Shown here piece after piece: positions 18,769 to 23,553 of a DNA stretch of 64,000 bases. The notes beneath the pieces are model-generated. The model worked only from the letters and a program-made list of their open reading frames with translations, searched no databases and was not told where the DNA came from. Made by a program: the position numbers and the translations under genes. Every line of letters starts with the position of its first letter. Position 1 is the first letter of the stretch. Source of the stretch: Phenylobacterium sp. (GTDB lineage Bacteria; Pseudomonadota; Alphaproteobacteria; Caulobacterales; Caulobacteraceae); assembly GCF_025351295.1 (NCBI RefSeq), contig NZ_JANXWD010000115.1:51666-115665 (forward strand), written 5' to 3'.

Positions 18769-19845
18769 GTGCGACTCCCCCAGGCCAGGCTCGACCAGGT
18801 GCTCGACCGCTTCCGCGAGATCGAGGCGCGCATGGGTGCGGCCACCGGCGGCCCCGAGATCGTGCGGCTGGGCAAGGAGCACGCCGAGCTGAAGCCGGTG
18901 GCCGACGCGGTCATGGCCCTGGAGCGGGTCAAGGCCGAGGGGCCGGAGCTGGAGGAGATGGCCGCGTCCGGCGACGCCGAGATGGCCGGCCTGGCCCGCG
19001 ACGAGCTGGAGGCGCTGAAGGACAAGCTGCCGGCCCTCGAGCATGAGGTCGCCCTGCTGCTGGCCCCCAAAGATCGCGACGAGAACGCGTCCGCCATCCT
19101 GGAAGTCCGCGCCGGCACGGGGGGCGACGAGGCGGCGCTGTTCGCCGGCGACCTGTTCCGCATGTACCAGCGCTACGCCCAGACCCGCGGCTGGCGGGTG
19201 GAGATCGACAGCCTGTCCGAGGGCGAGATGGGCGGCTTCAAGGAGGTCGTGGCCTCGGTCACCGGCGACGGCGTGTTCGGTCGGCTGAAGTTCGAGAGCG
19301 GCGTCCACCGGGTGCAGCGGGTGCCGGCCACCGAGGCCCAGGGGCGCATACACACCTCGGCCGCCACCGTCGCCGTCCTGCCCGAGCCTGAGGACGTGGA
19401 GATCGACATCCGCGACCAGGACCTGCGCATCGACACCTACCGCTCGTCCGGGGCCGGCGGCCAGCACGTCAACAAGACCGACTCGGCCGTGCGCATCACC
19501 CATCTGCCGACCGGCATCGTGGTGACCAGCTCGGAGAAGTCGCAGCACCAGAACCGCGCCCGAGCCATGAAGGCGCTGAAGGTCAAGCTGTACGACCAGC
19601 AGCGCGAGGCCCTGGACAGCGCCCGTTCCGAGGCCCGCAAGAGCCAGGTGGGCTCCGGCGACCGCTCCGAGCGGATCCGCACCTACAACTTCCCGCAGGG
19701 CCGGGTCACCGACCACCGCATCAACCTGACCCTCTACAACCTGCCCAAGGTGATGGAGGGCGAGGCCCTGGACGACGTCATCAACCCCCTGATCGCCGAG
19801 GACCAGGCGGCCCGCCTGGCGGCGCTGGAGGACGAGTTCGGGTAG
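18769..19845 (+). CDS. prfA: Peptide chain release factor 1
   Basis: 358 residues, normal for RF1. The catalytic GGQ is at residues 230-232 in [20 protein letters not shown], and the UAA/UAG stop-codon recognition region with the P-A/V-T tripeptide is at [22 protein letters not shown]1 decodes UAG and UAA in the ribosomal A site and triggers peptide release; PrmC, encoded 4.5 kb downstream here, methylates the GGQ glutamine. In related genomes prfA and prmC are adjacent; here the gap holds the 19.87-22.19 kb island, a YihY gene and a MOSC gene. GTG start at 18769. Confidence 0.97.
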
Positions 19846-19852
19846 GGCGAAT

Positions 19853-19889
19853 TCCTCCCCTGTCGGGCGAGGTGGCGCGAATGACGGGA
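19853..19889. repeat. Left half-arm of a REP palindrome, split by the island
   Basis: TCCTCCCCTGTCGGGCGAGG followed by the 18-bp direct repeat. Joined to bases 22189-22195 it forms one arm whose complement is found at 22260-22302. The two arms share GGACCCCCTC at the inner end and CCGAT/CGACAGGGGAG at the outer end. The arm is interrupted exactly at the island boundary. Confidence 0.55.
19872..19889 (+). repeat. attL-like 18-bp direct repeat
   Basis: GTGGCGCGAATGACGGGA, identical to 22171-22188. It lies 26 bases after the prfA stop. Confidence 0.75.
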
Positions 19890-20102
19890 CTTTTACCATC
19901 ATCAACAAAATCAATCACTTAGGTAATGTCGTGTGCTACCTAGGTGAGGGGCCTGTGTAGCAGAAACGGCAGGCTTGGGAAGGGCCGCCCGTTCAACCCG
20001 ACGAGCCTTCGTCTCCGACACTGACCTGCTATGGTGACGCTCTGAGCCGCCTACTGGCGGTAACGCCCTGGTTCCGAACTCTCACCGCCGAGGAGCGACA
20101 CG

Positions 20103-20606
20103 ATGAAGCTGTTTGGATTTGGGAAGAGTAGGGAGGAGCGTGCGTCCCAGCTTGACGCGAAGAAGGCCCATGACGCGGCGAACGCCGAAGCCCTTGAGAT
20201 GGGCCGCAATGCCGGAAACGCTATGACCGGCGCGGTCGATCATTTCATCACCTTCCGAGCAAGGCCGGTCGCGGAGAACGTTTATGGGGTCTTCCTTGAA
20301 CAAATCGCGTCCATAAGAAGTAATGAAGAACACTCACCCATCGATCTTGTGCGCATCGAAGCGAAAATCTTTGTAGAAAAGCTTGGCGAATATAAAGACA
20401 GAATGAATGTTGAGTGCCTGGATCATATAAGAGAATGGCTAGACATTGCTGATCAAATGGAAGTTAGAGATACGATTGAGCTCTATATATCAAATAAGCT
20501 GTCTGACATATTCATGGAGCTGTTCGAGAGAAGCGTGAACCGCGCCGCTGAGGTCATAGAAGCCTACCGGGCTCTCGGGTTCAAAGCTGTCCTGACAGCC
20601 GACTGA
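20103..20606 (+). CDS. Island cargo gene A, unknown 167-residue protein
   Basis: I do not recognise a family. ATG 20103 is preceded by GAGGAGCGACACG, a good Shine-Dalgarno. The N-terminus MKLFGFGKSREERASQLDAK is basic, without a signal peptide or membrane helix. The rest is rich in charged helices (KIFVEKLGEYKDRMNVECLD; LYISNKLSDIFMELFERSVN) and is probably an all-helical cytosolic protein. Codon use and AT content differ from the core genome, with several ATA/AGA codons between 20300 and 20530, a sign of transfer. It is followed after 22 bases by gene B, so the two probably work together. Hydrophobic heptads suggest a possible coiled-coil or bundle. Confidence 0.72.
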   Translation: MKLFGFGKSREERASQLDAKKAHDAANAEALEMGRNAGNAMTGAVDHFITFRARPVAENVYGVFLEQIASIRSNEEHSPIDLVRIEAKIFVEKLGEYKDRMNVECLDHIREWLDIADQMEVRDTIELYISNKLSDIFMELFERSVNRAAEVIEAYRALGFKAVLTAD

Positions 20607-20628
20607 CGTGTTAGAATAGTTGCCCACA

Positions 20629-21570
20629 ATGCTAGAGGTATATCGGCTCAAGTATACGAAGGCCCAGCTAGATGTCGTCCCGGACGATGAGCGGATGTTC
20701 ATCCTGAAAATGGGACAACTCGGGAACGAGATAAATCTCCTCAGGTTCCAAATGCTGGTTGCGATGAGGTCGGGTGGGAGTGAGATCCATAACGAGGCAA
20801 GCAACGCCCTCACTCTTATTAACGCGCGTTTCCTAGCTGGCCGCCTCTATGAGGGCTGGGTCTTATGCGGAGCGAACGTGGCGATGCTTAGGAAGTATAA
20901 ACGCGTTGCAGAGGCCAAGGCTGCGTGGCGTGAGATCAGCCGATATTTTTCGGGCGCGGGCGCGCCTATGGGCCAAAAAGCCGACAACAAGCGGCAGAGG
21001 CTCCTTACGTTGGCGCGGTTGGTGCAACTTGAGAGCGTTGACCTGCCGCCAGGAAGCGCGGGACTGGAGATGGCGCGTCGCGAGCTTAAGTCGGCCCCCG
21101 ACCTTTCCGCGAAGGATGCCATCAGGGCCCTACGCGCCGAGGCCGGAAAACTATCGACAGGCTACCAAAGCGTCATTGAGCGGCTGCGGCACAAGGTTGC
21201 GTTCCACAATGACGACGAGGCGGCAGGCGTCGCCTATGACGCCATGACCGCAGACGATGACCTATCCGATTTTCACACCTGCCACCGGGGCGCGGTGCTC
21301 TACGGCAGCGCCCAAACCCTCAATACGCTCATGATGATTTCGGTGACCGGAAACAAGGATCGGGCCGAGGCCGTGGATCGCATCATGGGCGAGATTCACC
21401 AAGTCGCCTCTCATTTCTACGATTACGTAGAGGCGGTCATGCAGAGCTTCTTTGAAAATTACATGCAAGAAGGGTTGGATGCGCTGGAAGACGGAAAGGT
21501 TGTCGTGGATGATGCGATCAAACTTAGCGATATAAAGCTCCAGTATTTTTGCCTTCCAGTGCGAGAGTAA
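20629..21570 (+). CDS. Island cargo gene B, unknown helical protein with HEPN-like R-x5-H
   Basis: 313 residues from ATG 20629; the TTG at 20620 in the track is less likely. It is mostly helical with no membrane segment or signal. The segment VIERLRHKVAFHNDDE (R187-x5-H193) resembles the R-x4-6-H active-site motif of HEPN ribonucleases, and the earlier LTLINARFLAGRLYEGWVL could be the partner helix. HEPN proteins are common in toxin-antitoxin and antiphage systems. Other than this motif there is no assignment, and the resemblance could be coincidence. Same operon as gene A, inside the att-like repeats. The gene ends 64 bases before the start of the integrase remnant's degraded 3' side. Confidence 0.7.
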   Translation: MLEVYRLKYTKAQLDVVPDDERMFILKMGQLGNEINLLRFQMLVAMRSGGSEIHNEASNALTLINARFLAGRLYEGWVLCGANVAMLRKYKRVAEAKAAWREISRYFSGAGAPMGQKADNKRQRLLTLARLVQLESVDLPPGSAGLEMARRELKSAPDLSAKDAIRALRAEAGKLSTGYQSVIERLRHKVAFHNDDEAAGVAYDAMTADDDLSDFHTCHRGAVLYGSAQTLNTLMMISVTGNKDRAEAVDRIMGEIHQVASHFYDYVEAVMQSFFENYMQEGLDALEDGKVVVDDAIKLSDIKLQYFCLPVRE

Positions 21571-21633
21571 ACTGAAAGCATATTTTTGATGTCCTGTCGC
21601 GAGGGGGTCCCTCTGATCGAAACAGCGCGGGTT

Positions 21634-22146
21634 ACCCCGTATTGCGCCCTTGGCAACCTTCTCAGCGTCCGCCTCTCGCTTGCGGGAAGCCTGCTCCTGT
21701 CGCGCCTCAGCCTCCCAGCGTTCGCGGTCCTCAGCCCGTGCCTGCGCTGCAAGTTTACGTGCCGGGTCGAACTCCTCCGCTAGGCTCTCCCGCTCCCAGA
21801 ACTCGATGCTCTCGATGTCATGTTCGGTCATGGTGTGCGGGATGCGGAGAGGGCGGGGCGGGGCCTCTGCCATGGCCTTCCGGGCGGCCTCGAACTCTTA
21901 ATCTAGCTGCACCCACATTAAGGCGTGCAGCCTTCGCGCCTCTGTGGGGTTGTTCGTGCCAAGCGCCCGAACTTCCTCAGCTTTACCCTTGTAGTGGGGC
22001 ACCAGGGCGAGGGGTATCCGGCGACGGGTGGAGTACATCCCGCCAGCACGGCGGATCAGTCCAGTTGGCATGTCGTTATCCGCATCATGTGTTACAGACA
22101 CAGGCGGCTTCGACATTTCTAACTGACTGATTTTGTTACTTTCCAT
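21634..22146 (-). pseudogene. Tyrosine integrase remnant (N-terminal domain only, nonsense codon)
   Basis: Reading from ATG 22146, RAGGMYSTRRRIPLALVPHY and VRALGTNNPTEARRLHALMW match the DUF6538-type N-terminal domain of phage integrases. An in-frame TAA at 21898-21900 interrupts it; beyond the stop the same frame continues with EFEAARKA and then MAEAPPRPLRIPH, ending in a charged linker helix (ARAEDRERWEAEARQEQASR). After about 21634 the similarity ends, so the SAM-like and catalytic (R-H-R-Y) domains are absent. The track ORF 21262-21873 is this remnant running on into antisense of gene B. The gap 21571-21633 shows nothing else. Confidence 0.72.
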
Positions 22147-22170
22147 TGGGTATCAAGGGCTTGTAACGCA

Positions 22171-22188
22171 GTGGCGCGAATGACGGGA
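22171..22188 (+). repeat. attR-like 18-bp direct repeat
   Basis: GTGGCGCGAATGACGGGA, identical to 19872-19889, 24 bases upstream of the integrase remnant start. Confidence 0.75.
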
Positions 22189-22302
22189 GGGGGTCCTTCA
22201 CGATGGCGCCGCCGAGGCCCTGTCGGCATCTCCGAGGCGCCCAGTCGATCCTTCTGAGCGGACCCCCTCACCCGCTTCGCGGGAGCTCCCCCGATGGGGA
22301 GC
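22189..22302. repeat. Right part of the split REP palindrome
   Basis: GGGGGTCC at 22189 completes the left arm; the facing arm starts with GGACCCCCTC at 22260 and runs to GATGGGGAGC at about 22302, with CGCTTCGCGG in between. The about 64 bases between the arms hold no gene. The same CCCCCTC-x-CCCGCTTCGCGG element occurs inside the 5-oxoprolinase at 53576. Confidence 0.55.
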
Positions 22303-22309
22303 AACTGGG

Positions 22310-23455
22310 CTAGCGCGACTTGCTTCGCCGCTTGAGCAGGCCCTGCACCTGCTTCCGCGCGGCGCCGAGCAGCTTGCGCAGGCCCCCGAACCGTACCCCC
22401 ACCGTGTCCGCCATGGCCGCCCCGCGCTTTCCCATCGGCTCGGGCTTGCCGGTGGTCGAGTCGAGGGCGGTCTGGTGTTCGATCTCGGCGTTCAGTTCGG
22501 CGCCCACCAGGACCACCAGGACCGAGAACCAGACCCACAGCATGAAGCCGATCACCGCGCCCAGGGAGCCGTAGGTGGCGTCCAGGCTGGCCACATGGTT
22601 CAGGTACCAGGAGAAGCCGGCCGAGCCGGCCATCCACAGGGCCGCCGCCGCTGTCCCCCCGGGAACCACCCAGCGCCAGCGGGCCGGCTGGCGGGAGGGA
22701 CCGAACCGGTAGGTGGCGGAGACGGCGGCCGCGGCGACCGCGAACACCAGCGGCCAGCGCACGGCGATCAGCCAGTCGGTCCGCAGCCCCGCCGCCTCCA
22801 GCACGATCGGCGCCGCCACCAGGATCGCGCTGACCAGCATCAGGAAGACGATCAGCGCCGCCGTGAAGCCATAGGTCAGGGCGCTCAGCCGCACGAAACC
22901 GCGCTTCTCGGTCTCGTCATAGGCGATGTTCAGGCCGTCGAAGAGCGAGCGCATCCCGGCCGCCGCGCTCCACAGCGAGAGCAGCAGGCTGACCACGAAG
23001 GCCAGGGAGAGGCCGCCGGGCTTGCCGGTCGCCAGCCGCAGCATCTGCTCGCCGATCAGCTTGACCGCCTCGGGCGGAAACACCGCGGAGAGGTCCTTCA
23101 GCTGTTCCTCGACCGCCTTGACGTCGGCGATCAGGCCGTAGAGCGAGACGAACACCCCCAGGGCCGGAAACACCGCCAGCAGGGTGAAGTAGGTGACGCT
23201 GCCGGCCACCACGGTCAGGCGGTCCTGGTTCACCTCCTGCCAGGTGCGCCAGGCGATGTCGCGCCAGCCGCGCCAGGGGATGGCCCCCGGCCAGGCGGCG
23301 ACCCGGCCGCGGCCCGGCTCCTGGGCCTCGAAGGTCGCCGGCGCGGCCACGGTCTGGCGGCTCTGCCCTGGCTGCGGCTTGGGATCGACGCGCACGGGCT
23401 GGGGCGCGGGCGCCTTGGCCGGCCGCCGTCCCGGCGGATTTTTCGCGCGCGCCAA
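22310..23455 (-). CDS. YihY/virulence factor BrkB family membrane protein
   Basis: About 381 residues. TTG at 23455 is preferred, since GGGAGG lies seven bases upstream; the track start is another TTG 15 bases earlier. A proline-rich cytoplasmic N-terminus (about 60 residues) leads to the YihY domain with six helices: VVAGSVTYFTLLAVFPALGV, GLSLAFVVSLLLSLWSAAAG, ALTYGFTAALIVFLMLVSAI and YGSLGAVIGFMLWVWFSVLV. The GAELNAEIEHQTALDSTTGK near the end is a family signature. Function is unsettled; early claims of RNase BN activity for this family were withdrawn in favour of another protein. A basic tail (KQVQGLLKRRSKSR) follows. Confidence 0.88.
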   Translation of the reverse strand: MARAKNPPGRRPAKAPAPQPVRVDPKPQPGQSRQTVAAPATFEAQEPGRGRVAAWPGAIPWRGWRDIAWRTWQEVNQDRLTVVAGSVTYFTLLAVFPALGVFVSLYGLIADVKAVEEQLKDLSAVFPPEAVKLIGEQMLRLATGKPGGLSLAFVVSLLLSLWSAAAGMRSLFDGLNIAYDETEKRGFVRLSALTYGFTAALIVFLMLVSAILVAAPIVLEAAGLRTDWLIAVRWPLVFAVAAAAVSATYRFGPSRQPARWRWVVPGGTAAAALWMAGSAGFSWYLNHVASLDATYGSLGAVIGFMLWVWFSVLVVLVGAELNAEIEHQTALDSTTGKPEPMGKRGAAMADTVGVRFGGLRKLLGAARKQVQGLLKRRSKSR

Positions 23456-23553
23456 GCCAGAACCTCCCAAAGCCGCGCTTGGCGAAACCCCCCGCGCGGG
23501 CTCGCGTTCCGCCGCGCTTGTGAAGCGGCGCGGTTTGCGCCTAAAGCCCGACC

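Follow-up and report, generated by a model that had tools for sequence, protein, structure and literature searches.

A small islet between prfA and yihY in the 64-kb stretch of Phenylobacterium DNA analysed here (the window) is real, precisely bounded, immobilised and of a known kind. We read it as a decayed tRNA-type integrative islet that would have integrated at a secondary site and that carries a candidate HEPN-type cargo protein encoded by gene B, and we give this account as a whole a probability of roughly 0.6.

Boundaries and att core of the islet

The features of the islet and its flanks, with the evidence for each, are as follows.

18769-19845, plus strand: prfA (peptide chain release factor 1), left flank; ORF list, 3' end matched in 100 of 101 genus genomes
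19850-19889, plus strand: left half of the disrupted repeat (ATTCCTCCCC...GGTGGCGCGAA); alignment with 14 other genomic copies
19872-19889, plus strand: left att repeat GTGGCGCGAATGACGGGA, reverse complement of the tRNA-Asp 3' end; repeat search, genome and genus comparison
19907-19922, plus strand: inward terminal motif AAAATCAATCACTTAG, which may be an arm-type site of the integrase; motif search
20103-20606, plus strand: gene A, 167 aa, orphan, predicted all-helical; ORF list, database searches, structure prediction
20629-21570, plus strand: gene B, 313 aa, HEPN-like family with invariant N33, E75, R187 and H193 (RHKVAFH); ORF list, homologue alignment
21630-22116, minus strand: integrase pseudogene, DUF6538 N-terminal part; ORF list, domain match, comparison with relatives
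22119-22134, minus strand: inward terminal motif AAAATCAGTCAGTTAG, immediately upstream of where the integrase begins; motif search, same place in the tRNA-Ser(GGA) islands of G080 and G157
22171-22188, plus strand: right att repeat, identical 18-mer; repeat search
22171-22225, plus strand: right half of the disrupted repeat (GGAGGGGGTCCTTCACGATGGCGCCGCCG...); alignment with repeat copies
22310-23470, minus strand: yihY-like gene, right flank; ORF list, conserved beside prfA in 14 of 29 fetched relatives

The preliminary description of this DNA had proposed an att-bounded islet with perfect 18-bp direct repeats, and the two repeats are indeed exact. They enclose 2.3 kb with a GC content of 0.56, compared with 0.69 for the window. 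The AT-richness that had been described for the interior is concentrated mainly in gene A and the A-B junction (~47% GC), whereas most of gene B is near 60% GC. Allowing up to three mismatches, the 64 kb contain only these two copies of the 18-mer, at a chance expectation of 0.15. The 4.6-Mb genome, where the preliminary description had allowed that the 18-mer might recur many times, holds two exact copies, both bounding the islet.

Within two mismatches the genome has one further copy: contig C78 carries a tRNA-Asp(GTC) whose 3' end matches the 18-mer in reverse complement with one mismatch. The islet itself is away from any tRNA gene, and none was found within the window. Across the genus, the 18-mer or its G variant is present in 40 of 101 genomes, and all eight of the loci scanned are tRNA-Asp 3' ends, six of them with the exact A form seen here. 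Based on this agreement, the repeat is a tRNA-Asp att core, consisting of 17 tRNA bases plus one. On contig C6 of G085 (1484 and 1624) the tRNA-Asp 18-mer occurs twice at a distance of 140 bp, which may reflect tandem tRNA genes or an island site that has been emptied.

Gene B and its rare family with four invariant residues

Genes A and B, which lie on the same strand 22 bp apart, are the sole intact genes of the islet. Consistent with the earlier statement that the cargo has no recognisable family, neither gene matched Pfam, NCBIfam or PADLOC, and PHROGs returned only marginal matches to families of unknown function. The cargo might have been conserved at this locus in all relatives, but gene A has no homologue in any of 148 other genomes and gene B has one, a distant homologue at another place in G044 (40% over 88 aa, E 1e-11). 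An alternative TTG start of gene B is possible at 20620.

Seven further homologues of B were retrieved in class, phylum, genome-contig and plasmid searches. The family, which has no entry in Pfam, NCBIfam or PADLOC, is sparse, occurring in three of 385 class genomes besides this one and in two of 399 in the phylum, and plasmid and phage tblastn and viral contigs returned nothing for gene B. The neighbourhoods include an AbiU2 HEPN gene directly upstream of the homologue on contig C254 of G792 (L092 631-2262). On Bradyrhizobium plasmids (L094 7998-8567 and L095), a truncated-looking homologue follows a DUF2235 gene beside a Qat anti-phage operon. This genome also encodes an AbiU2-type HEPN gene elsewhere (L100, G000:C35:22790-23329).

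The members of the nine-member family are 14-29% identical to B, and over ~250 aligned positions only N33, E75, R187 and H193 are invariant. An R-x5-H motif is present in all nine (RHKVAFH, RNKIAAH, RNSYSSH, RNNFAFH, RSNLAYH, RDSFGFH, RNEFAFH, RNKTAFH and RNNYAFH), with H, N (six of nine), S or D after the arginine. E75 is likewise invariant in nine of nine, whereas the x3[KR] part of Ex3[KR], the pattern in which the upstream acidic residue of HEPN proteins typically sits, holds in only a few members.

In HEPN proteins the catalytic signature takes the form Rx4-6H, in which a polar residue, in most cases N, D or H, follows the arginine and an acidic residue lies upstream (PMC3710099). The order in B, with E followed by R-x5-H, its all-helical prediction and a large insert before the motif fit this pattern. 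B resembles AbiU2 (PF18734) and the HEPN superfamily in the Rx5H spacing, the polar residue after R, the conserved upstream acidic residue and the all-helical prediction, and an AbiU2 gene adjoins one member of the family. It differs from them in that there is no detectable profile match, in its own invariant N33 and in about 60 additional residues inserted ahead of the motif. None of the nine members scanned matched the Pfam HEPN models, and hhalign of the B profile against a small AbiU2 alignment placed the motif in register at a probability of 4.6%. The AlphaFold model of B is mostly helical and poor (pLDDT 57); its fold comparison returned no HEPN structure, only generic helical bundles and no match with E <0.001, and a sequence search of the PDB with the B profile gave nothing meaningful.

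Based on the residue pattern, gene B probably encodes a HEPN-type nuclease, for which metal-independent RNase chemistry would be expected. The absence of a HEPN profile match, the weak profile comparison and the poor model would also suit a different helical protein, for example a structural or regulatory factor of a phage or island, in which R-x5-H is retained and the residues are structural. We regard this as possible but doubtful, given that the nine members, although highly divergent, all keep N, E, R and H and no other residue, as is typical of an active site and not of a fold core. A HEPN-type defence nuclease is therefore offered as the best reading of gene B, with the defence role the weaker part: two of the nine relatives have a defence-type neighbour (AbiU2 or qat) and the others do not.

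Gene A is an orphan

The codon-position GC of gene A (0.59, 0.35 and 0.58) is compatible with a real gene. Plasmid and phage tblastn and viral contigs contained no homologue, and the all-helical single-sequence model (pLDDT 84) matched only generic helical bundles, with no fold match at E <0.001. Kinship with the MGLFGSK protein of the G002 island was considered, and comparison showed no relation. Gene A runs in the same direction as gene B and is probably co-transcribed with it, and our guess, resting on adjacency, is that it is an accessory or inhibitor of B.

The preliminary description had gone further and suggested that A and B form a two-component system; this would be an undescribed defence or toxin-antitoxin system in which B acts as the RNase and A inhibits it or serves as its sensor. 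The shared strand, the close spacing and the lack of other intact genes in the islet agree with such a pairing, and HEPN toxins commonly adjoin an antitoxin (PMC3710099). Against it, the searches of 148 relatives, plasmids, phages and viral contigs gave no A homologue, and every examined relative of B, in varied contexts and beside unrelated neighbours, is without an A homologue nearby. The recommended search for other A-B neighbour pairs, in which phmmer compared A with the open frames in every locus fetched, gave none. Because A is without a detectable relative and relatives of B occur without A, the two-component system is unsupported, and we consider it unlikely.

Integrase remnant, terminal motifs and related islands

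The integrase remnant noted earlier beside the right repeat matches DUF6538 (E 2.4e-14). Its frame, which starts at 22116 on the minus strand, is interrupted by an in-frame premature TAA at 21898-21900, and the homology fades near codon 155, with the core-binding and catalytic domains missing. As only the first ~155 codons remain and a premature stop interrupts them, the islet is unable to move on its own.

Near each end there is a 16-bp motif (AAAATCARTCASTTAG), 17 bp in from the left repeat and 36 bp in from the right one. Both copies face inward, and a consensus search found no further copies in the window (chance expectation 0.00). The same motif is present at the integrase end of related DUF6538 islands. 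In the intact 7-kb island of G002, the only one in which the second end was seen, an inverted copy also marks the distal end (L072 13953-13968). Both termini of the islet are thus genuine, since the inward motif occurs at each and is common to the ends of related islands. We regard the motif as a putative arm-type site of the integrase.

The related integrases of the genus adjoin tRNA-Ser(GGA) (G080, G157 and G020) or the 3' end of ilvC (G002). Their N-termini are 57-68% identical to that of the islet, and the islands share with it the terminal motif, the att-integrase layout and, beside att, an integrase with an N-terminal DUF6538 domain. They differ in target genes and cargo, and the integrases of G157, G020 and G002 are full-length whereas that of the islet is truncated. 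The sequence between att and integrase is common to the islet and the tRNA-Ser islet of G080 (TGCGTTACAA.CCCTTGAT, also given as GCCACTGCGTTACAA.CCCTTGAT). A tRNA-Ser origin, as in the closest integrase relatives, was considered and rejected because the att core is tRNA-Asp and only this integrase-side stretch is shared with G080.

Two of these islands have further features. In the G080 islet (L069 1-1745, contig C121), which adjoins tRNA-Ser(GGA), the integrase breaks off near the same codon as here, and an HNH-like ORF (896-1438) comes after it. In G002 (contig C111, L072 6925-14000) the DUF6538 integrase of the intact ~7-kb island occupies the 3' end of ilvC, and the opposite end of the island is formed by a duplicate of the ilvC tail; the island also carries a resolvase and an ORF resembling a restriction-type N-terminal domain (no PADLOC match).

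Since the att repeats and terminal motifs are intact on either side, and G080 has a comparable islet whose integrase remnant ends near the same codon, the islet might still be mobile if a full-length DUF6538 integrase located elsewhere excised it and moved it in trans. Against this, no second match to the DUF6538 remnant was found in this genome, and such mobility appears improbable.

Landing site in a copy of a dispersed repeat

In the 14 relatives noted above, yihY directly follows prfA within about 200 bp, and other genes are found there in the remainder of the 29. Joined without the island, the flanks read ATTCCTCCCCTGTCGGGCGAGGTGGCGCGAATGACGGGAGGGGGTCCTTCACGATGGCGCCGCCG and match a dispersed intergenic repeat over about 75 bp. 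This repeat (GTTCCTCCCC...GGGGGAGGTGGCGCGAAGCGCCGGAGGGGGTCCTCCACGATGGCGCCGCCG) is ~75 bp long and partly palindromic, and has at least 16 copies in this genome (L074-L089 and the window). Because the joined flanks rebuild one copy of it, the insertion point is clear: judged by sequence, it lies in one dispersed-repeat copy between prfA and yihY.

The repeat contains a segment, GTGGCGCGAA, that is the 10 bp common to the tRNA-Asp end. The only block of the joined flanks that departs from the repeat consensus, AATGACGG (repeat: AAGCGCCG), is tRNA-Asp sequence, which indicates that the island entered a repeat copy sharing GTGGCGCGAA with the tRNA-Asp end. Four of the 18 positions of the 18-mer differ from the repeat consensus at both junctions and match tRNA-Asp, and we thus discarded the idea that the 18-mer is wholly part of the intergenic repeat. 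These four positions further require an original attB that either was a variant or underwent conversion: the repeat copy may already have been a variant, or a heteroduplex may have been fixed towards the element, leaving the core version of the element at both junctions. The fetched loci included no empty site of the same species; an empty prfA-yihY site would read ...TCGGGCGAGGTGGCGCGAA[repeat]GGAGGGGGTCC... with one 18-mer-like core.

That the 18-bp repeats are not att sites but part of the dispersed repeat, the segment having arisen by recombination between two repeat copies, is very improbable even though the genome contains no fewer than 16 repeat copies and the repeat shares GTGGCGCGAA with the 18-mer, as each junction holds only half a repeat so that the two together make one copy, the 18-mer differs from every other listed repeat copy in an 8-bp block matching tRNA-Asp, and the integrase remnant and terminal motifs lie at the segment ends.

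The islet resembles the Islander-type tRNA-targeted islands of tyrosine integrases (PMC4383910) in that its direct repeat is a tRNA 3' end, with an integrase at one end, foreign composition and small cargo. Unlike these, it now lies in an intergenic repeat instead of a tRNA gene, and its integrase is truncated. As a primary gene-end element in an intergenic secondary site it is comparable to SGI1 at the sodB-purR secondary attachment site (PMC2297512), although here the secondary site is a dispersed repeat resembling a tRNA end and the comparison is drawn from sequence only.

Proposed history and significance

We propose that a tyrosine integrase with an N-terminal DUF6538 domain may once have carried the element into and out of a tRNA-Asp gene by recombination at the 3' end of that gene, with the last 17 tRNA-Asp bases plus one as att core. 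The element would then have integrated at a secondary site, the dispersed-repeat copy with GTGGCGCGAA between prfA and yihY, and later loss of the catalytic part of the integrase would have fixed the islet in place. Its cargo B, most likely a metal-independent RNase of the HEPN superfamily, would cut RNA during phage infection or stress. A broader proposal, in which A and B are an undescribed defence system (a HEPN-type RNase effector with a helical partner) on islands whose tRNA-Asp att core permits landing in tRNA-end-mimicking repeats, the repeats being a reservoir of extra landing sites, seems to us a long shot.

As a mobile element the islet is otherwise ordinary. With gene B, an unnamed and sparse protein family with HEPN-like invariant residues joins the candidate antiviral RNases, and its four invariant residues make it directly testable. 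A tRNA-type island in a tRNA-end-like intergenic repeat would explain how such islands escape from their usual sites.
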